NCBI RefSeq assembly: GCF_039555335.1
Contig: NC_092636.1
Span: 775,501-839,500, forward strand
Length of the DNA stretch: 64,000 bases
Reading direction: 5' to 3'
DNA from: Amphiura filiformis
Taxonomy: Eukaryota; Echinodermata; Ophiuroidea; Amphilepidida; Amphiuridae
Shown: positions 20,606-64,000 of the stretch, in pieces
How the letters are laid out: every line of letters starts with the position of its first letter
Numbering within the stretch: the stretch's first letter is position 1
Translations under genes and position numbers: made by a program
Notes under the pieces: model-generated
Told to the model about the DNA's origin: nothing
The model's database searches: none
The model's input: only the letters and a program-made list of their open reading frames with translations

Positions 20606-21174
20606 TTAAACCATATAGTAGTGCTCTAAGCATAACATGTAGCAACATCATGTTTATAAATAGCATCAAGTCCTGGCACAAGTTTACATTGAAAGTCAGA
20701 ATTGGGTAAAATGCCAGCTATTAAATCTATAAATACATGTAGCAACAAAAAAGTCTCTGAAAGACCATTCTCGAATCTCATAACCAATTTAAATATGATT
20801 ATCTTTGTAGTAGATATCCTTTCGGATTCTCAATCTGGTTTTAGATCCAATCATTACACAACAACAACTTTACTAGATGTTCAAGAATATATTCTTTTAT
20901 GGACAATGGTTTTGCAACAGGGGTTATATTTTTGGATTTAAAAAAAGGCTCTTGATACAGTAAATCATGAAATTCTAATTAATAAACTTGCTGAATATGG
21001 TATTAGGGTAATGAACTTGGTTGGTTTAAATCATACCTGAAGTAATAGGGCTCAAACTGTGCATGTTAATTATTTTCTGTCAGATTTCAAAACTTATATT
21101 TGGAAGTCTCAATCTTAGGTCCTCTGCTATTTATAATTTTTGTTAATTATTTACCTGATGTTGTAACTTGTAAG

Positions 21175-22122
21175 CAGGGTTCGCGTTTTAATGCGTCATT
21201 GCGTTCTGGATGCAAAATTTTGAAAATGGGTAAATATGGACGCACTGAATTTCTAAATCCAAGGAGGTTAAGGGGTCCAAAAAATCTCAACTGGACGCAT
21301 CCAAATCGCAGCCGGATTTACTGTGTAGAAATAAAAAATCCTCCCATTTAACAATGTTACTGTTTATCTACATAAATGTGTCATTAATTTTCAAAATCGC
21401 CACAAAAAGTCGTTGTTTTTAGGAATATCCAAGGCTGGGCGCCGTCAATTTTCAGTTCATATCGTCGCCGGTCATTATTTTAGCCTTCCAAAACTTTCAG
21501 AAAGTCCGGCATTCTAGACCCCAAATTGCATAATATGCACATCATTTTCCAAGCAACTGAACCCCTAAAATGGTGAATTATGGACTAATTTACTTCAATA
21601 ATTGATATATCACACAGTAATACTGATTTGTGAAGTAGAATTTACAGTAACTTCAGCCGTTTTTGGCCGTATCGCGAACTTTATGAGATCGAGTCCACCA
21701 TCTTGGTTTCTGGTTTTAAGATAAACAAAAATATACTGCCCTCTATAGGCAGTATAAAATTAATTATTGACCAGCCTCAGCAGGCTGTAGACATGGAATA
21801 TATACTTATATAGATAATATAAAATGAAATAAAATAATTAAATTAAATTAGATTAAATTGGATTAAATTAGATTTTAAAAATTAGATTAGATTAAATTAA
21901 ATTAAATTAAATTAAATTAAATTAAATTAAATTAAATTAAATTAAATTGTTAAAAAATTAACTTTTTTGGTATTTTTCAATTTTTTTTATTTTGAAAGAT
22001 TTTGGCGTTTTGAACCCTTTGTTTTTAGGTTTGGACGCCCTATTTTCAGACTAAAGGTGGGGTTAAGGGGTCCAAATAGCTTCCACTGGACCCCCTGTTT
22101 TAACCAGGCACCACTAACCCTG
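21175..22122. mobile_element. nonautonomous hAT element with 8-bp TSD
   Basis: CTTGTAAG stands at 21167-21174 and 22123-22130. Ends CAGGGTT and AACCCTG are inverted. An 8-bp target duplication with CAGGG termini is diagnostic of hAT. 948 bp, no transposase; contains an (AATTA)n run. Confidence 0.9.
21834..21947 (+). repeat. (AATTA)n microsatellite
   Basis: Pentamer tract inside the hAT element, purest from 21892. Confidence 0.9.
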
Positions 22123-26462: not shown

Positions 26463-27153
26463 CATTTCAGCATCTGCAGCAGCAAAAATAAAGCATTTGA
26501 AATTTGCATCACTGTCAGGTCTCCACAAATAACCAAAGCTCTTCTTGTCATGTCCTCGACAAAATCGGGATATAAAAGTGGGTGTATGATGAAACAGTAT
26601 CAGGCCATTAGATTCTGATATGGCAATGGTACCTTTACCAGAAATCTGTAAGAAAACTCTTTGATCACGCTTTCTTATCCCTACGCTTTTTCTGCAATTA
26701 TCCAAGGTAACATAGGTTGTGTGATGCGTTTGTCTATCGCAATATCACCGCAGTAAGTCAGTTTGAAGTTGTAGATACACATGCCATCTTTACAGATGGA
26801 ATCCATTGCTATCCCTCTCATCCCTGATGATGGGGATGTTGTTTGGCACTTTCCCTCATCTCATCCTCCTCTTTGAATTTAAAGTTTCTCTGTGAGTGTA
26901 ACAAAGCTTCCGAATTCTCATCTTGGATATCAGTCAGCTTTGCGATCAGCGGATCCAATGGAATGGAATTTGGCCGTCTAATGGGTGACACAAATGCTGA
27001 ATTTGAAGAATCATCATTGTTATTGTGTACATTTCCTTCCGATTGCATAATACTCGGTGGACTACCGATTGTGGTATCTGAATGTTCACAATCCGCTAAT
27101 CCTAAACCACTGTCAACAGAGGCGTGTTTTTTCGATTTGGTTCTCTCACCCAT
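26463..27153 (-). CDS. TBC1D4/TBC1D1-like Rab-GAP, first coding exon (disrupted frame)
   Basis: TBC1D4/AS160 and TBC1D1 are cytosolic Rab GTPase-activating proteins controlling vesicle traffic (GLUT4 vesicles in vertebrates). The ATG at 27153 follows an in-frame TAA 18 bases upstream. About 110 acidic, Ser-rich residues come first, including RRPNSIP. A new frame from 26821 then reads YNFKLTYCGD and QPMLPWIIAE, matching the conserved PMLPW-[LV][MV]-AE block at the start of PTB domain 1. A third frame reads ISRFCRGHDKKSFGYLW and FKCFIFAAADAEM, matching the ISRFIHNSHD/CHVF part of PTB1. The exon ends at 26463 before GTACGT and joins exon 2 in phase 0. The two frame changes lie near a GGG at 26822 and an A5 run (T5 on the + strand, 26687-26691). 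No other premature stop falls within the matching segments. Family assignment is firm; the choice between TBC1D4 and TBC1D1 is not possible and probably predates their split. The N-terminal 110 residues have no homology I recognise. Confidence 0.85.
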
Positions 27154-27450
27154 GTTTCCATCTGAAGCTTACTCCGACACTTGTTTCTGTTTTAATAATC
27201 TCACCGGTCAGTTATGAATAGACCAAAGTTGTTGTAAAGCCCACCACAACGGGGTTTTCCGATGATTCATAGGACCACCAGCCGCACTTTGACGTTTGGA
27301 AACTACTGTACATCGCCATTCGCTGATATTCCTGCATATCAAGGAGCACCCAATCAATTATCGATTTGCGCAGGCGAGGCTATTCTTGCACACCGTTGAG
27401 TGAGTGCGCTAGACCAAAACAATGGACGTGACACTGTTTTCATCTATTTT
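27154..27450 (-). promoter_or_regulatory. probable 5' UTR/promoter of the TBC1D-like gene
   Basis: Sequence directly upstream of the start codon is richer in GC than its surroundings and free of recognisable repeats, up to about 27450. No clear TATA box. A placement from position only; an upstream noncoding exon cannot be excluded. Confidence 0.3.
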
Positions 27451-49315: not shown

Positions 49316-49406
49316 AGGACTCGAAGCCGAGTCCCCGAGTCCTGCATGGGGTCCGAGTCCGAGTCCGAGTCCTTAGCTTCCGAGTCCAAGTCCGAGTCCG
49401 AGTCCT
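49316..49406 (+). repeat. (GAGTCC)n hexamer repeat
   Basis: About 13 GAGTCC/AAGTCC units. Confidence 0.9.
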
Positions 49407-49409
49407 TGA

Positions 49410-52340
49410 AAATTTAATCTGATGACATATTGATCGTTTATTGATGTAGGCTAATTGTGCATGTATATGCCTACATGTACATGTACCATTGTTACAAATT
49501 ATTCACTGTATATTGATTTTTGGAACACCCTAATGAGAATTGGATATTTATGTGATATTATAGCAATTCTTTTCAAGAAATGTAAATTTTTTATGTATTT
49601 TTCAGTGGAATCACCCTGTATATTTTTGGCACACCCTGTATATCCACTCAAACTTTACATATTTGCAATCCTGACAATATATGCTTTCTAAAAATGTATA
49701 ATTTTACATATTTTGGGTGAAAACTTTTTGAAATACAAAAAAGGAGTTGATTTTTGGCAAATTGCAAGATGTGACGCAATTGGGTCCCACCTCAAAAAAC
49801 ATGACCATACAATAGAGTAATTAAAAAATTAAAATTAAAATCTTTTTTTTTTTTGGCCTTAGGAAGATTTTCAACATGGGGGGGGGGGCTGAAATTGAAA
49901 CATTTTTGGTGTCAGAAAATGTGCAAAATATAGGCCTAGGTCACAAACACCCATTTTATCATAATTGTATTAACGTCACCTAGGATTATTGGGGCTTGGG
50001 GTGAAAGGTATTCCACCCCCCAGCCCCACGGTATTGTATAATTATGATGAAAAGTGTTATCACCAGAGTTTCAACTGCCACTTTACTTTTCCAATCCCAT
50101 TGAATTCTGTACAAAAGTTGTTGTTTTAAAATTGTGTCTCACAGCAGTGTCTGTTTTAATACTTGGACGTCGATTTCAGAACAAAAGTAATACTTCTAAT
50201 TCACAGTGGGCCGATGCTATGCTAGTCATATCAGATATAACGACCAATAGATAAATGACTGGCTAGTGACTATCATTGAAGACTGATCGAGTTCCGCAAT
50301 TTTAACCCTTGATCCGAATATTGATTGACAAAATTGCAGCGAAGTTGTGAGTAATTCATTGTAGGCCTATATATAATATTATCAACAATTATAAAGTAAC
50401 AATTTTTTTATGTTATAGGGCCCTGTTCCCGGTCCTATTATTAAGCTGATCATAAGCTTACCGTTTTATAAAAGTAGTTTTTATCCTGGCCGGTAATCTT
50501 GTATCATCACCTATCAGCTCCTATCTGTCACACACGTCCGTCCTGTTCTGTTGTATACGCAATCAGATGGCCTTTAAAGATTCGCGCGAATTCAGTGAGT
50601 TCAGCCAGCCTTCATGGTTCAGCTGGTTCTGACGTTATGCTGGATATTCCATTCAGTCACAGAGGGGGTTCAAATTCACTGCTAGATCCAATGATGTACT
50701 GCGCATCACATTTGGCGTATAAACACATGCAACGCCACCACTGAATTTACACAAATTATTGATGTCTCTCATTATTTTTCATGTAGGCCTACCTCTTTAA
50801 AAATTACTCCAACCGGTTGAGATGAGAAAAATATTATTACGCCAAAACTGTTCCCTCACGTGATAAAAGTCACTTATGTTATGTGTTATGCTTATGTATC
50901 AATCCGCAAAAGAAACTAACATATAAGTTTAGCCTCAAGTTGTGTGACCAGTTTAAATTTACCTCAACAAGTTTAGCCTTGTCAAATGTCCAAGGCCTTT
51001 AAGGCCAAAAAATTGTTGTTTGATTGGCGTAACCCGATCGACTGAGACCCGACCCTAGACTTTTTTTTTTCTTATTTTTTTTTGCCTATTGTTTTTAATT
51101 TTAAAAACTAAATTAAAAAAAGAAGTTACAAGGCCTTTACCATACGCAATTTACCGTGCGTGTACAAAAATAATTTTTAATCTTTTTTATGTTACGCCAA
51201 TCAAACCCAATTATCCAGATATCCAATAGCGGGGGGGTGCTGGATAGTTTGAAAAAAAAATTGTCTCGACATCTGCCAGCAAAAAAATTGCTCCCACGGT
51301 TTTTTTCACATGATTCCCATCTGTTCCTTAAATTTTTGATTTTTTTGATAAATAAAAATATGTTATTATTAATCATGATGAACGCATCCTGTTGGAAATT
51401 ATACTGATGTAAAATGGTCATAAAGAGTTTATATAATTAGTGACAGTAAAAGTAGAGTAATAAACCTACTTACGAGGGGGTATCAACAAGTTTTAGAAAT
51501 CGCCCAGAAGTGAAAGAGCTATATCAATGAAATTTTGTCAGTGCAATCACTGATCGGGTGCGAGTTGCTTACAACGAGTACCTAGAGACAGAAATGCATC
51601 ACTTTCCAATATAAAATTGATGGTAAAAAGAATGCAAATAGAGGTTTGATCCAAATAAAGATGATGTAAATTGGAGAATTATAAGAAATGCAAAAACATG
51701 ATTCCATTTTGAAAGAGAATGTAGTAAACCGTAGTCGAAACAGTCAAAAGTAATCATGTAAAAAGTCAAAGCCAGTATAGCTAGCTAAATATTGGAAGTA
51801 ATAAATATTCAGATATAATATGAGACATAAGATAGATGCGGTGGTGAGTGAATTTTATCATTAAAAAGTTTTTAAAGTAAGCGCAAATGAATCGCGTAGA
51901 GTACAAAGGATGGTAGTGCAGGAAGTGGCTAGCGCACGTTATTAGCGTGGTAAAATTGCACTACATTGCTGTATATGGAATTGCTCGTGATAAAAAATCG
52001 GAGAAAGAATGATCAAAAATCAAATTAAATATATGTAAAAGAGCTTTAAGACGTATGGCAGCATTCAATATGGATTGTGTATGTATAAATAAGATAGGTA
52101 TTGAGTAAACAATTGTCAGTTAATGTAAATAAAAGACAGACCTGATGACAGGAATGCAAAGACATGGTGCAAAATGTATTTGTTTGTGTTATTTCGGGGT
52201 AAGAGTAGTACTTATTAATGGAAAAATTATTAAATTATCTAACCAAATTACGGAAATTGGGTTAAAATAATCATAATAGAGGAGACTAGTACTACTAAAG
52301 TGCATACAGCATAATGAAACAAAGCATCATTATCTCTTTT
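49410..52340. other. noncoding, nothing firmly recognised
   Basis: Contains the dispersed repeat at 50050-50140 (as 34440). 50440-50750 is more GC-rich and non-repetitive but shows no coding frame. 51470-52340 is AT-rich. Confidence 0.4.
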
Positions 52341-52352
52341 TTAACATATGGT

Positions 52353-52368
52353 GGCTCTGAAAAGAGCC
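52353..52368 (-). terminator. replication-dependent histone-type 3' stem-loop
   Basis: The minus strand reads GGCTCTTTTCAGAGCC, a 6-bp stem with a UUUC loop, preceded by AAAC and followed by ACCA: the metazoan SLBP-binding consensus with the flanks usual in echinoderm histone mRNAs. A purine-rich AAAAAAGAGA at 52342-52333 sits where the U7-binding histone downstream element is expected. Distance from the TAG stop (33 bases) is typical of histone genes. I saw no second copy in the window. Confidence 0.9.
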
Positions 52369-52401
52369 GTTTAAAAATTGATCTCAAAGTGAGATTGATG
52401 T

Positions 52402-52814
52402 CTACAGGCTTGGTGGTTGTCTTTCTCCCCATGAATTGCGGGGACGTCTTGCAGGGAAGGTTGGCTGCTCCGTCCTGTTGACGAAACGAAGGAAAAGCAG
52501 TTCAGCTCTGCGCCTCTGGGAAAGATCGGTGATCGCTTCTTTCAGATTTTGAAGTCTCGATTCACGCTCGATGTGGATTTTTTCTTCCATACAGTCAATC
52601 ACATTTGGAAGATTCTTGATTACCTTCTTGTGCAGTTTCTTCTCATACTTTCTAATGGTAGTTTTACCGTCCTCATGCAAGGCATGAGGGAAAGGTGTAG
52701 ACCCTGGAAGAAGAGGAAGGCTTGGTGCCGCTGGCATCCATTTCGGACAGATTTCTTGCTGATGAAGGCGAATATTATAATCAAGAAAAGCCTTAGCTTA
52801 TCCCGGTTGATCAT
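52402..52814 (-). CDS. short intronless non-histone gene with histone-type 3' end
   Basis: The open frame ending with TAG at 52404-52402 runs back to a TAA at 52800-52798; its first ATG (52737) gives 111 residues. An ATG at 52814 in good context (A at -3) lies in the neighbouring frame and would join it with one extra base in the T4 run at 52786-52789, giving about 138 residues. The product is Pro-rich at first (MPAAPSLPLLPG), then basic and charged with helix or coiled-coil character (TTIRKYEKKLHKKVIKNL, EKIHIERESRLQNLKEA), then FLRFVNRTEQP and a Pro/Arg tail. It matches no core or linker histone in any frame and no family I know. Local GC is clearly above the flanks. A canonical histone stem-loop lies 33 bases past the stop, so the mRNA is probably non-polyadenylated and S-phase regulated. 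Function unknown. Confidence 0.6.
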
Positions 52815-55346
52815 AATTTGACGTCTAGTGAAAATGTGGAGTTAGTAGCCCGTTTTTCTTTCGATTTTGTGAAGAAATCGAGAGTTGGCTATGTTGCTAT
52901 GTTTTACAGTTTGACAATGTTTTTTGAAACATTATCATTTTGCATGCTTTTTGCTTTGCTTACTATCTTCTGAAGATAGCATTTTGGGCATACAAAGAAA
53001 ATAATAAATGTTTTTTGGAACATTATTATTTTGCATGTTTTTTTATTTGCTTGCTATCTTCTGAAGATAGCATTTTGGGCATACAAGGAAAATAATTAGT
53101 ACCTCTTTTTTTTTTATCTTTAATGATTTTTTTGTTGTGGTTATTATTTTGACTATCTACTACTGAAGATAGCAATTACGGCGGGTTTATATAAGACAAA
53201 AGGTAAAAAAAATTCTTGCGTACTGAATCATCATTGGGGTTTTTTTTGTCTTGTTTTGTTTTGATTTTTTAATACCAGCCATGTTTTTGGCATATTTATT
53301 CCACATTTTTTCCTTTATGTTCCTGATAATCTTTACTATATAAGTGTCGTTGTAAATTGTGGTATGCTTCGGCATTTTAACATTTTTTATAGCTTTGCAT
53401 TCGATCTATTGTTTTTTTTTCTGAGCGCGTGGCCAATTACAGCCGTTTTGCCCAGGGGTTTTGCGTACTGAATCATCATCTAGAACGCGTGTTAGGCAAT
53501 GTTTTTTTGAAACATTATTATTTTGCATGTGTTTTGCTTTGCTTGCTATCTTCTGAAGATAGTATTTTGGGCCTACAAAGCAAATAATTAATACCTCTAT
53601 TTTTTCTTTATCTTTACTGATTTTTTTTGTGATTATTATTTTGACTATCTTCTGAAGATATATAGCAATTACGGCTGGTTTATATAAGACAAAATGTAAT
53701 TTCTTGCGTTCTGAATCATCATTGGTTTTTTGGTGTGTTTTTTTTTTTTTTTTTTTTTTTCTTTTTTTTTCTGCTTAACCTCTGCTATATAAGTGCCGTT
53801 TTAAATTTTGGCCAGCTTCGCCATTTTAACATTTCTTTATAGCTTTGCATTCAGCCTATTGGCTTTTTTTCAGCGCGCGGTCAATTATAGCCGTTTTGCT
53901 CTTGGATTTTGCGTACTGAATCATCATCTAGAACGCGGGTGTTAGGCAATGTTTTTTGGAACATTATTATTTTGCATGTTTTTTGCTTTGCTTGCTATCT
54001 TTTGAAGAAAGCATTTTGGGCCTACAAAGAATATAATTAATACCTCTATTTTTTCTTTATCTATAATGATGATTTCGTTTATAATTATCATTTTGACTCT
54101 CTACTGAAGATAGCAATTACGGCGGGTTTATATAAGACAAAAGTAGTCATCATTGTTTGGGTGGTTTTTTTTTTTTTTTTTTTTAAATACCAGCCATTTT
54201 TGGCATATTTATTCCACATTTTTTCCTTCATGTTCCTGATAATCTCTCTAATATAAGTGCCGTTTTAAATTTTGTTCAGCTTCGTCATTTTATCATTTCT
54301 TTATAGCTTTGCATTCGGCCTATTGGATTTTTTTAAAGCTCGCGGCCAATTATAGCCGTTTTGCCCCGGGAGTTTGCGTACTGAATCATCATCTAGAACG
54401 CGTGTTAGGCAATGTTTTTTGAAACATTTTTATTTTGCATATTTTTTTATTAGCTTGCTTTCTTCTGAAGATAGCATTTTGGGGCTTCAAAGAAAATAAT
54501 TAATACCTCTATTTTTATCTTTAATGATTTTTTGGTTTGCTTGCTATCTTCTGACGATAGCATTTTTGATCAATACCTATATTTTATTTCTTTATCTTTA
54601 ATAATTTTTACAGTTTGACAATGTTTTTTGAAACATTATCATTTTGTATGTTTTTTGCTTTGCTTACTATCTTCTGAAGATAGCATTTTGGGTATACAAA
54701 GAAAATAATTAATAACTCTATTTTTTATCTTTAATGATTTTGTTTTTGTGATTATTATTTTGACTATCTACTGACGATAGCAATTACGGCGGGTTTATAT
54801 AAGACAAAAGGTACTTTCTTGCGTACTGAATCATCATTTTTTTGTCTTGTTTTGTTTTGCTTTTTTAATACCAGTTATGTTTTGCATTTTTGTTTCTTAT
54901 TTTTTCCTTCATGTTCCTGATAATCTCTGCTATATAAGTGCCGATTTAAATTTTGGTCAGCTTCGCCATTTTAACATTTTTATAGCTTTGCATTCTACCT
55001 ATTGGCTAATTTTTCTGAATCATCATCTAGAACGCGTGTTAGGCAATGTTTTTTGGAACATTTTCATTTTGCATGTTTTTTGCTTTGCCTGCTATCTTCT
55101 GAAGATACCATTTTGGGCCTACAAAAAATATAATTAATACCTCTATTTTTTCTTTATCTATATATGATGATTTCGTTTATGATTATCATTTTGACTATCT
55201 ACTGAAGATAGCAATTACGGCGGGTTTATATAAGACAAAAGTAGTCATCATTGTTTTTTGTTTTATTTTTTTTTTTTAATACCAGCCATGTTTGGTATTT
55301 TTATTCCATATTTTTTCCTTCATCTTCCTGAAAATCTTTGCTATAC

Positions 55347-56366
55347 AGGGTGTCCCAGAAAAAATTACCGGGCGAATACATTTGAACGTAAGTCGAGAAA
55401 TAGACATCAAAATCCAAATATCAAAACATCAGCGTATAGCCCATCTTATTCTGCATCTTATACGCCAATTTGACTGGAATCGGTTGACTGAGTGCGAAGA
55501 AATGCGCGATTACATAATGCATGCATCAAATCACTCCATTCCAAGTTTGAAAGAAAGATCATTTAACACAATATGCACCAGCGGTTAACTGTCAATGGGC
55601 TTCAAATTTTGTTCTGTGAACTCCTTTTCGTTCTTTTTAAACAATCTGTTTCTTGCAAAACATTTATTAGGTTTTGTTCAAATTTGAAAACCTACATATT
55701 GAAAATGAAAGCTTGCATGTAAGATGCTCGGTACATGTAAATATCTTTTTGCGGTAATGTTGATATAAATGTTGCATACAGAACTATTGCATATTCCAGC
55801 TGGCTTAAAAAATACTCACACACATTAATGTTTTTGGAATTTTTCCAAGGAATTGTAATGCAAAGTTAAAATCTTTTAAAACTTCAACATTAATGTTGCA
55901 GCTATCAAAAATCACACGTAAAGCTGTAAGCACTTGATCATTGTCATTCCTGGCTCAAATGTTCTTCGAAAAAGTTAAAATATAACATAAAGAATTAAAG
56001 ATGGAAAGCTTCAAATTGCAGAAATCAAAGTTTTCTCGGACAAACTGATATTCATCTTCAGTGAGAGCATGAATAACATAACACCGTCGGATTATAAAAT
56101 AGATAATGTGGACTATAAAGTTATTGAGATACATAAACTTTAGGCAAGCAGTAAGCGAGTATGAAAATAGCGCTTTTGATCAAACTTGGAATGAACTGCA
56201 TTAATGCGCGCATTATGTAATCGTTAATTTCTTCGCAACCAGTCAACCGAATCAAATAAAATTTTCATATGTGATGCACAATAACATAGGCTATGCGTTA
56301 CATTTTAAACGTTTGGATTCTGATGTCTATTTCTCGACTTACGTTCAATTTTATTCACTCGGTAAT
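55347..56366. mobile_element. foldback element inserted in satellite
   Basis: Starts TA|CAGGGTGTCCCAGAAA; arms AAAAAATTACCG, TTGAACGTAAGTCGAGAAAT and AGACATCA are mirrored at the right end. The CAGGGTGTCCC start recalls Tc1/mariner-type ends; the right tip is lost. Confidence 0.75.
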
Positions 56367-57004
56367 TTTTTGCTTTGCTTGCTATCTTCTAAAAATAGCA
56401 TTTTGGGCATGCAAAGAATATAATTAATACCTCTATTTTTTCTTTATCTATAATGATGATTTCGTTTATAATTATCATTTTGACTCTCTACTGAAGATAG
56501 CAATTACGGCGGGTTTAAAAGTAGTTATCATTGTTTTTGTTTGTTTTTTGTTTTTTTAATACCAGTCATTTTTGGCATTTTTATTCCACATTTTTTCCTT
56601 CATGTTCCTGATAATCTCTGCTATATAAGTGCCGTTTAAAATTTGTTCAGCTTCGTCATTTTAACATTTCTTTATAGCTTTGCATTCGGTCTATTGGATT
56701 TTTTCTAAGCGCGCGGCCAATTATAGCCGTTTTGCCCCGGGATTTTGAGTACTGAATCATCATCTAGAACGCGTGTTAGGCAATGTTTTTTGAAACATAA
56801 TTATTTTGTATATTTTTTGATTAGCTTGCTTTCTTCTGAAGATAGCATTTTGGGGCTTCAAAGAAAATAATTAATACCTCTATTTTTATCTTTAATGATT
56901 TTTTTTGTGATTATTATTTTGCGTACTGAATCATCATTGTTTTGGGTTTTTTTTGTCTTGTTTTGTTTTGCATTTTTTAATACCAGCCATGTTTTGCATA
57001 TTGC

Positions 57005-57225
57005 TATTTTTTAACCCCAGACAAAATAATGAAATTGGAAGCAATGATTTGCGTCTTTGTCAGACGTTCAAGAGACATATATGATTTATTTGCAATAAGT
57101 ATGTAACACAAATATATAGCATGCATATAAGGAATCAGCACCCAAAACCTGGACTTATTAGCAAAACGATATTTAGATTTACAAAGGACCCTGATGAACT
57201 ATCAAAAGTCACCACCCCAATGTTT
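57005..57225. other. non-satellite segment in the array
   Basis: About 220 bases without match to the unit (ACCCCAGACAAAATAATG ... AGTCACCACCCCAATG), bounded by satellite on both sides. Origin unknown. Confidence 0.5.
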
Positions 57226-59297
57226 TTTGAAACATTATCATTTTGTATGTTTTTTTTATCTGATAAAAGGTCATTTTATAAGATAAAAGGTCATTTCTTG
57301 TGTACTGAATTATCATTTTTTTTTTCTCTTGTTTTGTTTTGCTTTTTTAATACCAGCCATGTTTTGCATTTTTGTTTCTTATTTTTTTCCTTCATGTTCC
57401 TGATAATCTCTGCTATATAAGTGCCGTTTTAAATTTTGGTCAGCTTCGCCATTTTAACATTTTTTATAGCTTTGCATTCGACCTATTGGCTTTTTCTCAT
57501 TATCATTTTGCATGTTTTGCATCTTCTGAAGATAGAATTTTGGGCCTACAAAGAATATAATTAATACCTCTATTTTTTCTTTATCTATAATGATGTATTT
57601 TATGATTATCATATTGACTATCTACTGAAGATAGCAATTACGGCGGGTTTATATAAGACAAAAGGTAATTTCTTGCGTACTGAATCATCATTTTTTTTGT
57701 CTTGTTTTGTTTTGCTTTTTAATACCAGCCATGTTTTGCAATTTTGTTTCTTATTTTTTCCTTCATGTGCCTAATAATCTCCGCTTTATAAGTGCCGTTT
57801 TAAATGTTGGTCAGCTTCGCCATTTCAACATTTTTTATAGCTTTGCATTCGACCTACTGGCGTTTCCTCTGAGCGCGCGGCCAATTACAGCCGTTTTGCC
57901 CAGGGATTTTGCGTACTGAATCATCATCTAGAACGCGTGTTCGGCAATGTTTTTGGAACATTATTATTTTGCATGTTTTTTGCTTTGCTTGCTATCTTTT
58001 GAAGATAGCATTTTGGCCTACAAAGAATATAATTAATACCTCTATTTTTTCTTTATCTATAATGATGATTTCGTTTATGATTATCATTTTGACTATCTAC
58101 TGAAGATAGCAATTACGGCGGGTTTATATAAGACAAAAGTAGTCATCATTGTTTTGTTTTGTTTTTTGTTTTTTAATACCAGCCATTTTTGGCATTTTCA
58201 TTCCACATTTTTTCCTTCATGTTCCTGATAATCTCTGCTATATAAGTGCCGTTTTAATTTTTGTTCAGCTTCGTCATGCGTACTGAATCATCATCTAGAA
58301 CGCGTGTTAGGCAATGTTTTTTGAAACATTATTATTTTGCATATTTTTTATTAGCTTGCTTTCTTCTGAAGATAGCATTTTGGGGCTTCAAAGAAAATAA
58401 TTAATACTTCTATTTTTTATCTTTAATGATTTTGTTTTGTGATTATTATTTTGAATATCTACTAAAGATAGCAATTACGGCGGGTTTATGTAACACAAAA
58501 GGCAACTTCTTGCGTACTGAATCATAGTTGTTGTTTTTTTTGTCTTCTTTTTTTTTGCCTTTTTAATACCAGTCATGTCTTGCATGTTTTTTCTTTTTTT
58601 TTCCTTCATGTTCCTGAAAATCTTTGCTATAACTGCCGTTTTAAATTTTGGTCAGCTTCGCCATTTTAACATTTTTTATAGCTTTGCATTCGACCTATTG
58701 GCTTTTTTTTTTTTTTTCTGAGCGCGCGGCCAATTACAGCCGTTTGGCCAGTGATTTTGCGTACTGAATCATCATCTTGAACGCGTGTTAGACAATAACA
58801 TTATTATTTTGAATGTTTTTTGCTTTGCTTGCTATCTTCTGAAGATAGCATTTTGGGCATACAAAGAAAATAATAACTTTGTTTTGCTTTTTTAATACCA
58901 GCCATGTTTTGCATTTTTGTTTCTTATTTTTTCCTTCATGTGTCCTGATAATCTCTGCTATGTAAGTGCCGTTTTCAAATTTTGGTCAGCTTCGCCATTT
59001 TAACATTTTTTTTTATAGCTTTGCATTCGACCTATTGGCTAATTTTTGCTGAGCGCGCGGCCAATTACAGCCGTTTTGCCCAAGGATTATGCGTACTGAA
59101 TCATCATCTAGAACGCGTGTTAGGCAATTTTTTTGGAACATTATTATTTTGCATGTTTTTTGCTTTGCTTGCTATCTTCTGAAGATAGCATTTTGGGCCT
59201 ACAAAGAATATAATTAATACCTCTATTTATCTATGATGATTTCGTTTATGATTATCATTTTGACTATCTACTGAAGATAGCAATTACGGCGGGTTTA

Positions 59298-61951
59298 TCT
59301 TACTATAAATAGGGGAATGTTGTGGGTGTGTGAACGGAAAAGCTCCGTCAGTTTCGACCCAAATGTCGCCAAATTCATACGGGAGATCGAGGAATTTACG
59401 GGAACGTGTTTAAACTTTATTTGGTTGAAAACGGTCAAGAATTGGCTGCCAAAACAGTGAAAATAGGGGTAAAAACGGGTTTTTTTGTTATGAAAATCGG
59501 CTGCCAGCTTACGCGCCACTGCAGCTCGCCGGCAGCGCGTCGGCGCCGCGTGCGTAATGCGCACTACGCCAATGTGCGCGTAAACGGCGCAAAGCCACGC
59601 GACTTGCGAGCCAGAGACCAGTGGACACAGTCAGTCGTGAGCCCAGACAAACGAGAACCTAGACCAATAACTTTGACTCGCGTAGTGAAGCCGACACTGC
59701 TTAGCAACAAATTTGACAAGGACGCATACCCGGACGCAAACAAGCAGACATGTTCGCGTCTATGGAACATGTTGCATTTGACGCGGCGATAACGACGCAG
59801 TAATCACGCAAACGAGCGTGTCAAACATGTATGCGATATTTCTCCGCGCCTAGTAACCCCGTCAATCCGTCAATATCACCTTGGATACGGGGCTTCACGT
59901 CCCGCTGTGGTAAAGGATGGGCAGTAATAGGTCTAGGTGGTATGTCTATGGTCGTGAGCACGCTCAAACGCTGCTCTGTGTGAAAGTAAATATGCATAAC
60001 AACCAGTGCGCGTAATGCTCCGTGGCCAATTATGCATACAAATTAGCTCATGACATTCCCCTGTTTGAAGAGCTCTCATTTCTTTGTTTTAACACGAAAA
60101 ATTACGAAACTTTCAAATTATCATGCCAACCCAATGAACTAGCACGTTGCGAAAAAAAAAGTAGATCCAAGTTTATTTGGATGAATAAATAGCGTGTGTT
60201 TCGAACTAACACATTTCAGTACAAATGTCGAAAAAAAAACAGTATTAAATTCCATTTTTCTGCAGTAATTGAAATAACACATTCGTATAATTCAAAAATC
60301 TGACCGATACAAAGATTTTGAATACAAATACCTCAAAAAATCCGTACGAATTGGCGTAAATCGACCAGGAGGTAGACACTTTTTTGCGAAGGCAAAATGA
60401 GATTCGAGAACAATCAGCCCATGACATTTCCCTGTTTGAAGAGCTCTAATTTCTTTATTTTAACACGAAAAGGTATCACTCTCTCAAATTAGCATTCCAA
60501 ACTAGTGAACTTGCATGTCACAAAAAAAGAAGGAAATCAAAGATTATTTAGATGAAAAATAAACGTGTGTTTTGAACTAAACAATTTCAGTAAAAAGTTG
60601 GGAAAAAAAGCATCATACTTAAACTTAATTTTGTATTTGTAATTTAAATAACACAATCGTAAGAATCACAAATATGAAAGATGAAACGGTTTTGTACACA
60701 AATGCCACGAAAATGTTGCACAAATTGACGTAAATCACCCGGGAGGTAGACAGTTATCGGCGAAGATGAAATGAGCTTTGAAAATATTCAGGTTTTTTAA
60801 AACTTTTTGTTTACTTATTTATGCTGTGGCGAACTTAAACGCGTATCACACTGTACACCACTTGCATAGCGCGAGCGTCACGCAAAGTTAACCGCGCGCC
60901 GGCGCGGTATTTGTGTTAGGGCGCGTACAACCCGAATGTTGATTGATAGCTGACGCAAAAAATACCACGAGAAAGGCCTGCAATTCGGTAAAATTCGCAT
61001 TTTTCCATCATTTTTGAAAGAACAATTTAGACACTTAATCTAAATAACACATACCTATAAATTTACCAAACGAAGCGGAATTATGTGAACTATGTGAAAA
61101 TGAAGTCAAAAAAGTTCATGATTAGGTAAATCGGAGGGGAGGTAGACGAATGTCGCCTAAGGTTTTCAATTTGGAAAAATTGAACAAAAAGTTAGTGTCA
61201 TTTAAACGATCAAAAACAACAAAAATAAAGCAAACTTGGTCTCGTTTTTTGTCACAGAATTAAATGTACATCCTCCTTAGCAATTTGAAATGTTTTTCAG
61301 AAAACAGATGACAGTATATACCTTATCTTTCAGGTCAGCCAGTGCTGAGCGTGTTTTTGTCTAAATTATTGTACACGGATTGCGAGCGAGAAACCATGAG
61401 ATTCTTCGAGATCCTCATTTCACAACTAGCCGATTCAGCTCATTAGCGACCGTGCTCACGACTGACTGGACATGATAATACGGAAAGAAGCAAAAATAAA
61501 TGACTAAAAGGTACATGGATGGGTCACGGGATTATGATAACGTTTGGACACGTCCGCAGACACGCTATGAGAGGACGTAATAAATACGGGAAAAAGATAT
61601 ATAAACAACATGAAACGGTACTATAAAGAAAAATTAAATTAAAATGAGGACAAAAAGGTACGAGTAATTATAGGCTAACGGGTTAAAGTGAAACGGGAAC
61701 CAAACAGAGAAGGAAATAAACTAATCAGGAAATAATAAGAAAAAAGAAGCTAAAAAGAGAAGAGATGGGAACGGGGTTAAATAAATAAACAACATGGAAA
61801 CTGAAAATCACAAGCATGACAAGCTAAGCAGAAGAAACTTTAAAAAAAAAAATGTAAGAAGAGACAGATTTATATAAATAAAATGTACCTTTTCAATGAT
61901 TCCACCTGTTCAGAAATTATTCCTGTTATAGTGAACGCTTCCATTTACTCA
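59298..61951 (+). mobile_element. Helitron copy 1 (nonautonomous)
   Basis: Starts A|TCTTACTATAAATAGGG in the satellite word GGTTTA|TATAAG, as Helitrons insert between A and T. Shares CTCCGTCAGTTTCGA, CATACGGGAGATCGA and CACTGCAGCT with copies 2 and 3. Lacks the 3' hairpin, stopping at CTCA where copy 2 begins. No Rep/helicase. Confidence 0.8.
59628..61468. mobile_element. 1.84 kb DNA element inside Helitron copy 1
   Basis: Perfect 15-bp TIR CAGTCAGTCGTGAGC at both ends; GACA duplicated at 59624-59627 and 61469-61472. Copy 2 shows the uninterrupted site at 62291-62310 (GACCAGTGGACATGATAATA). No transposase seen; superfamily open (4-bp duplications occur in Chapaev-like and some other groups). 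Confidence 0.9.
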
Positions 61952-62843
61952 TCTTACTATAAATAGGGAAATGTTGTATCTATATATCTATCTATGTATC
62001 TATGTATGCCTATAAAGGCTCCGTCAGTTTCGATCCAAATGTCGCCAAATTCATACGGGAGATCGAGGAATATACGGGAACGTGTTTAAACTTTATTTGG
62101 TTGAAAACGGTCAAGAATTGGCTGCAAAAACAGTGAAAATATGGGTAAACACGGGTTTTTTGTTATGAAAATCGGTCACCAGCCTACGCGTCACTGCAGC
62201 TGGCCGGCAGCGCGTCGGCGTCGCGTGCGTAATGCGCATTACGCCAATGCGCGCGTAAACGGCGCAGAGCCACACGATTTGCGAGCCAGAGACCAGTGGA
62301 CATGATAATAGGGAAAGAAGGAAAAATAATAAAGGACAAAAAGGTACATGGACGGGTCACGGGATGAAGCGGTACTATAAAGAAAAATTAAATTAAAATG
62401 AGGACAAAAAGGTACGAGTAATTAGACCAACGGGTTAAAGTAACTAAATGAAACGGGAACGAAACAAAGAAGGAAAGAAACTATTCAGGAAATGTAAGAA
62501 AAAAAGAAGCTAAAATAATGAGAACAGAATTTAATAAAAAAAACCATGGAAACGGGAAATCACAAGCAGCAAATAAAAAAAAAAAGATGCTAAAAAGGAA
62601 ATATAAGAAAGAACAGATTTAGAAAATAATGGGAACTGGGTTAAATAAATAAATAACATGGAAACGGAAAATCACAAGCTAAGCAGAGGAAACTAAAAAA
62701 GAAAATGTTAGAAGAGACAGATTTAGATAAATAAAATGTACGTTTTCAATGATTCTACCTGTTCAGTAATTTTTCCTGTTATAGTGAACGCTCCCATTTA
62801 CTCATCTAGCGGGGACCCGCGCGAAGCGCGGGTATCCCGCTAG
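61952..62843 (+). mobile_element. Helitron copy 2, complete short copy
   Basis: Begins TCTTACTATAAATAGGG and ends with a GC-rich hairpin and CTAG, followed by T. 892 bp. Confidence 0.85.
62808..62841 (+). terminator. Helitron 3' hairpin
   Basis: CCCGCGCGAAGCGCGGG nested inside GCGGG/CCCGC, two bases before the CTAG end; the RC-transposition termination signal of Helitrons. Confidence 0.85.
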
Positions 62844-64000
62844 TCTTACTATAAATAGGGAAATGTTGTATGTATCTATGTATCTATCTATGTATCATGG
62901 AAAGGCTCCGTCAGTTTCGATCCAAATGTCGCCAAATTCATACGGGAGATCGATGAATATACGGGAACGTGTTTAAACTTTATTTGGTTGAAAACGGTCA
63001 AGAATTGGCCTCAAAATCAGTGAAAATGTGGTACGTTGCTATGCTGGGTAAACAAAAAGGGAGTCAGTTGTCAAGCTAGCCCGTGCGCGTCGTACGGGCG
63101 TATCTAATGCCAAGCCGCTCGCGTAGCGCAGCGATAGCGCGCGGGTAACGCAGCACTACGCCATGTCGCGCGTAAACGACGCAGAGTCGCGCAATGAATG
63201 ATAATACGGGTGAACGACCATAGACATACCACCTAGACCTATTACTGCCCATCCTTTACCACAGCGGGAGGTGAAGCCCCGTATCCAAGGTGATATTGAC
63301 GGATTGACGGGGTTACTAGGCGCGGAGAAATATCGCATACATGTTTGACGCGCTCGTTTGCGTGATTACTGCGCCGTTATCGCCGCGTCAAATGCAACAT
63401 GTTCCATAGACGCGAACATGTCTGCTTGTTTGCGTCCGGGTATGCGTCCTTGTCAAATTCGTTGCTAAGCAGTGTCGGCTTCACTACGCGAGTAAAAGTC
63501 ATTGGTCTAGGTTCTCGTTTGTCTGGGTGAACGACCGACCGTAGGCGTAATAAATACGGGGAAAAGATGTGTGTTAAAAAGTACAAACAACATGAAGAGG
63601 TAGGCCTACTGTAATTTAAAAAGAAAACAAAATGAGGACAAACAGGTAGGCCTACGAGTATGTGGGTTAGCCTATAGTTAGTCACAGTAAGAAAATTAAA
63701 ACGGGAATAAAATAGGCTAAAGAAGGAAAGAATAATAAAATCTAATAAAATTAGATGATTTAAATAAAAAAGGCTATTAAACTGAGGACAGAACTAAATA
63801 AATAACATGAAAACGGGAAATCACAAGCTAAGCAGCAAATAAAAAATGAAGTCAACAGCGAACTGTAAGAAAGGACAGATTTAGAAAATAATGGGAACGG
63901 GATTGAGTAAATAAAAAACATGGTAACGGAAATTTGCAAGCTTAGCAGCAAAATGTTTTTAAAAAATGGAACAAAATTGGCCCATGTAGAAGAAACTAAA
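62844..64000 (+). mobile_element. Helitron copy 3, right end outside window
   Basis: Begins TCTTACTATAAATAGGG directly after the CTAG of copy 2. Carries at about 63207-63540 a segment homologous, in inverse orientation, to 59640-59955 of the 1.84 kb element. Confidence 0.8.

Follow-up and report, generated by a model that had tools for sequence, protein, structure and literature searches.

Can an animal gene that encodes no histone end in the 3' processing signal of replication-dependent histone mRNAs? The question is raised by a locus on the minus strand of the 64 kb stretch of DNA analysed here (the window), where a non-histone reading frame of 131 stop-free codons plus a TAG stop (52402-52797) is followed by a hairpin that, to our knowledge, is reserved in animals for histone mRNAs; how the 3' ends of histone mRNAs evolved early on has reportedly been surveyed. 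Present at the locus are the hairpin with its flanks, a downstream element and, just upstream, the end of a coding-like frame. The explanation favoured here, tentatively and at slightly less than an even chance, is a small non-histone gene that uses the SLBP/U7 3' end.

The covariance model RF00032 (Rfam, histone 3' UTR stem-loop), which scores the hairpin together with its flanks and the downstream element, matches the minus strand at 52373-52328 over its full length (model positions 1-46), scoring 39.8 bits where the gathering score is 34, with an E-value of 3.3e-8 (64 kb, 4227 Rfam families), and it is the sole Rfam match at gathering scores in the window. The stem-loop GGCTCTTTTCAGAGCC (52353-52368) starts 33 nt past the TAG stop and is flanked by AAAC on its 5' side and by ACCA on its 3' side, after which come TATGTT and the purine-rich AAAAAAGAGATAATG. 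The first-pass annotation had described a hairpin with AAC and ACCA flanks 33 bases past the stop and a purine-rich element after it; the former is present at 52368-52353, the latter at 52342-52328 inside the RF00032 match, and that observation holds as a whole. The intervening 33-nt 3' UTR (52369-52401, minus strand) contains neither AATAAA nor ATTAAA, and a stem-loop at such a short distance from the stop codon is a hallmark of replication-dependent histone genes. The predicted fold of the 53-nt stretch around the hairpin has the expected 6 pairs and 4-nt loop, with an energy of -9.3 kcal/mol (z -2.49) that was equally low in 5 of 200 shuffles.

The ACCA (52349-52352, minus strand) is the expected site of pre-mRNA cleavage. 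Passages of PMC6303110 place the cleavage of histone pre-mRNAs 5 nt (at ACCCA) and 7 nt (at ACCCACA) past the stem-loop; the CA found here lies 4 nt past it, one base closer. AAAAAAGAGATAATG (52328-52342, minus strand, inside the RF00032 match) resembles a histone downstream element and is the presumed U7 snRNA site. Pairing of 52348-52322 with what we take to be the 5' end of human U7, which may differ from the U7 of the species itself, gives -11.2 kcal/mol; 43 of 1000 shuffles equalled this energy, as did 68 and 87 of 1331 windows on the respective strands of 46-58 kb, so U7 pairing of the downstream element is a modestly supported prediction.

On the 5' side, the frame contains an internal ATG at 52737 that defines the 111-residue ORF (52737-52402, minus strand) already listed in the first-pass annotation. 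Coding phase, as judged by period-3, extends upstream of this ATG across 52759-52797, and a longer N-terminus is therefore favoured. A possible true start, ATG 52814 (52798-52814, minus strand), stands one base off the main frame, and it may be the natural start if one base near 52790 is faulty. The longer gene that had been proposed from this ATG is thus supported by the coding phase 5' of ATG 52737 and is burdened by the one-base change near 52790 that it needs to come into frame. The offset may be an assembly fault in a homopolymer or a real lesion; otherwise, translation may begin at ATG 52737. Neither TATA[AT]A nor CCAAT occurs on the minus strand over the 286 nt that precede ATG 52814 (52815-53100).

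Diverged repeats (52902-59214) begin about 90 nt upstream of ATG 52814 and recur to about 59.2 kb, with a 91-bp unit in 2.0 copies at 52916-53096, a 340-bp unit in 2.0 copies at 58549-59214 and pieces at irregular spacing between both; the palindrome CTATCTTCTGAAGATAG is found in several repeat copies within 52920-53598. Further along, the translations of 59334-59789 (plus strand) and 63380-63793 (minus strand) share an almost identical C-terminus of about 50 residues, evidently a dispersed repeat. Elsewhere in the window, two adjacent stop-free pieces at 20693-21348 (plus strand) resemble by eye the reverse transcriptase of a non-LTR retrotransposon, with no Pfam match at E up to 0.01.

The state of the 5' flank would suit a relic, namely a once-working gene with a histone-type 3' end that has become a pseudogene through a frameshift near 52790 and the loss of its promoter to the adjacent repeats: the frame of ATG 52814 does not match that of the ORF, though coding phase runs 5' of ATG 52737, repeats adjoin the flank, and TATA or CCAAT was not found upstream. 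Conversely, the hairpin, its flanks and the downstream element are intact and 131 codons are free of stops, from which it follows that any decay must be recent, and pseudogenisation is considered unlikely. Even if it were true, a non-histone gene with a histone-type 3' end would still have existed once.

The preferred reading of a working non-histone gene depends on whether the frame is coding, and the signs of this are moderate. Scanning the 64 kb with 300-nt windows at 10-nt steps puts the top period-3 value (3.53) at 52541-52840; in 201-nt windows the best value here (3.06) is second behind a place at 49331, and in 120-nt windows the ORF region lies outside the top 15. Over the whole of 52402-52758 the period-3 value was matched in 151 of 2000 simulations, because the C-terminal third of the ORF carries little coding signal. 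The GC content of 52402-52758 is 0.48, as opposed to 0.29 in 52815-53300 and 0.32 in 51900-52327, and equal richness is found in 3.8% of all 357-nt windows. Moreover, the minus-strand reading is poor in T at codon position 1 (0.12) and in G at position 2 (0.17), as is usual in coding DNA.

The length of the frame adds little: of 1000 simulations based on the local 482 nt, 40 contained a stop-free run of 131 codons or more on one strand or the other and 105 contained one of 118 codons or more, while the real window holds 18 runs of the former size and at least one such run appeared in 47 of 50 simulated windows. By amino-acid composition the ORF ranks second among the 60 stop-free stretches of at least 90 codons, yet its score (-0.02 bits per residue) is neutral in absolute terms and does not exceed what base content predicts; neither length nor composition proves coding by itself. 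The neutral score, together with a period-3 peak that comes first in 300-nt windows only, slightly lowers the likelihood of the gene reading and slightly raises that of a histone 3' end displaced to this site. The first of the 60, at 26821-27168 (minus strand), has the most protein-like composition in the window and looks like an exon of another gene, with no Pfam match at E up to 0.01 and no significant PDB match. The third is the opposite strand of the present locus (52435-52818, plus strand), stop-free over 128 codons, which has zero Pfam matches and probably just mirrors the coding phase of the minus strand. Period-3 cannot separate the two strands; the hairpin occurs on the minus strand only.

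An alternative that draws on the same figures is that a rearrangement brought a histone 3' UTR next to a stretch, or a terminal exon, with which it has no connection; in that case the ORF would not use the hairpin, would be noncoding, or would be part of a spliced, polyadenylated gene. A pyrimidine-rich, splice-acceptor-like stretch ending in CAG at 52761-52759 (minus strand) would agree with it, as would the failure of ORF length and composition to prove coding by themselves. However, the coding phase crosses this CAG and continues 5' of it, no histone coding remnant is present in six frames, and strand and spacing are consistent with a single unit; likewise, the three minus-strand frames of 52762-62758 contain no upstream exon with a Pfam domain at E up to 0.1. 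The nearest AATAAA or ATTAAA 3' of the hairpin is 1172 nt away, which also speaks against a polyadenylated gene, albeit weakly, since such signals were absent over 1053 nt in 280 of 2000 simulations. Taken as one, these variants of a borrowed 3' end are improbable. The favoured non-histone gene would probably be intronless, its frame being open from 52797 to 52402, but the acceptor-like CAG at 52759 and the 5' frame offset allow for an intron; its product would be a basic and helical protein some 111-137 residues long.

The encoded protein was sought among the histones and elsewhere. A search of the six frames of 52369-52902 with an E limit of 10 yielded no histone family (HMMER filters drop most matches above about 0.1), in agreement with the earlier statement that there is no histone in any frame, and the locus does not encode a recognisable core or linker histone. 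A histone in an alternative frame was rejected, the two other minus frames having no PDB sequence match at E up to 1. For the ORF itself, nothing passed the cut-off in Pfam (best E 0.055 for 118 residues and 0.047 for 111), and the best matches in PDB (E 0.094) and PHROGs (E 0.042) were not significant; tblastn found no paralogue in the window (best other E 1.5) and confirmed no relatives among 8 viral-contig and 81 prokaryote-contig pattern matches, leaving the ORF without a homologue in Pfam, PDB, PHROGs, viral contigs and prokaryote contigs. From ATG 52737 the protein has a mass of 12.96 kDa and a pI of 10.2, bearing out the basic character ascribed to it (pI about 10), and it lacks a lysine-rich tail. 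AlphaFold2, run on the single sequence of 118 residues, predicts one helix (residues 31-96) with loose ends (mean pLDDT 74.6, pTM 0.44), with ten-residue block means of pLDDT of 88-98 over residues 41-90. The description "coiled-coil-like" finds a counterpart in this one long predicted helix and little in heptad regularity, which is weak (47% hydrophobic a/d positions in the best register, 35% overall); a coiled coil is thus conceivable but poorly supported.

A basic protein coupled to a histone-type 3' end could also be a lineage-specific histone or linker-histone relative that has diverged past recognition, which would make the locus an ordinary fast-evolving replication-dependent histone gene; animals do have sperm-specific histones of limited distribution, according to parts of PMC5011920. 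The Pfam search with an E limit of 10, which gave neither a histone nor a linker-histone, the missing lysine-rich tail and the AlphaFold model, which gives one long helix and neither a histone fold nor a winged helix (single sequence, pTM 0.44), all go against it and make such a relative quite improbable.

The hairpin was also weighed against chance. A degenerate hairpin pattern matches once in the window with 0.09 matches expected, and at least one occurrence was seen in 8 of 100 shuffles. As controls served all 13 loci returned by the viral- and prokaryote-contig scans, 11 in viral contigs with the exact 16-base hairpin and 2 in prokaryote contigs with 19 bases; none of the 13 reaches the RF00032 gathering score. 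In two of the viral-contig controls the exact 16-base histone hairpin lies within RNAs of the bacterial RyeA/SdsR small RNA pair (L001:6161-6303, L005:468-610), and the bare hairpin sequence is therefore unspecific to histones. The 20-mer composed of the hairpin and ACCA has zero exact matches in viral contigs. Thus, the bare hairpin can arise by other routes, while hairpin, flanks and downstream element are jointly specific. That a chance hairpin merely adjoins a chance ORF is hardly credible, for although the bare 16-mer turns up in large collections by chance or within bacterial RNAs (11 viral contigs), flanks and downstream element raise the match in the window to E 3.3e-8 and 0 of 13 controls attain the cut-off.

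In sum, the non-histone gene is argued for by a full-length RF00032 match that is unique in the window and well above a cut-off which none of the 13 exact-hairpin controls attains, by the top 300-nt period-3 value directly upstream with a GC content above both flanks and a codon bias against T at position 1 and G at position 2, by the 33 nt between stop and hairpin and the short UTR, both shared with replication-dependent histone genes, by the long predicted helix, and by the absence of poly(A) signals over the next 1172 nt. Against it stand the missing TATA and CCAAT, the repeats some 90 nt upstream of 52814, the lack of a homologue, the weak C-terminal coding signal, the neutral composition, the unremarkable ORF length, an open opposite strand that scores almost as well, and the frame fault required if 52814 is the start. 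The interpretation first given to the locus, that of an unusual non-histone gene that would be coupled to S phase and perhaps encode a chromatin or sperm protein, is upheld in part: for the hairpin (RF00032), the downstream element, the non-histone status and the basic, helical nature of the protein. It is weakened by the missing TATA and CCAAT, the faint coding signal of the C-terminal third, the neutral composition and, for a start at 52814, the need for a frame fault.

If the gene is real, its expression can be modelled on that of replication-dependent histone mRNAs, as portrayed in sections of PMC2781718, PMC1924863 and PMC5011920. The locus would be transcribed into a pre-mRNA bearing a complete histone-type 3' processing signal; by analogy, SLBP would bind the hairpin, the U7 snRNP would pair with 52342-52328, and the cleavage enzyme would cut near ACCA, between the hairpin and the downstream element, to yield an mRNA without a poly(A) tail that may accumulate in S phase only or be stored in oocytes. 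The protein would then be made in step with DNA replication, fitting a chromatin-associated or packaging protein. That the locus is a true protein-coding non-histone gene of an animal, with an mRNA produced through the SLBP/U7 pathway and a further class of protein thereby tied to DNA replication, is somewhat less likely than the favoured explanation but still a serious possibility. Such a gene would join a known 3' module to a gene type new for it and be an exception to the rule that histone mRNAs alone carry such a 3' end, showing that the SLBP/U7 pathway can be captured by another gene and pointing to a protein required in proportion to new DNA. Among the matches listed for open-licence PMC titles and abstracts, none reports a non-histone animal gene with a histone-type 3' end, and earlier reports may exist.

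Compared with known systems, the locus resembles the Rfam family RF00032 (Histone3) in its full-length match above the gathering score and differs from it in being attached to a non-histone ORF. Like metazoan replication-dependent histone genes, it has a stem-loop followed by ACCA, a purine-rich downstream element, a short 3' UTR and a short basic protein encoded by an ORF without an evident intron; unlike them, its protein is not a recognisable histone, and TATA and CCAAT were not found. A single histone hairpin in 64 kb also sets it apart from clustered replication-dependent histone genes, for which clustering is typical and not required, isolated histone genes also being in existence. Replication-dependent histone genes, as characterised in parts of PMC5011920, have short UTRs, no introns, and a hairpin with a purine-rich HDE. 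Lastly, although lineage-restricted histones of the sea urchin sperm H2B type are recognisable histones and the ORF protein here is not, they provide, as far as the portions of PMC5011920 concerned go, a precedent for lineage-restricted basic nuclear proteins.
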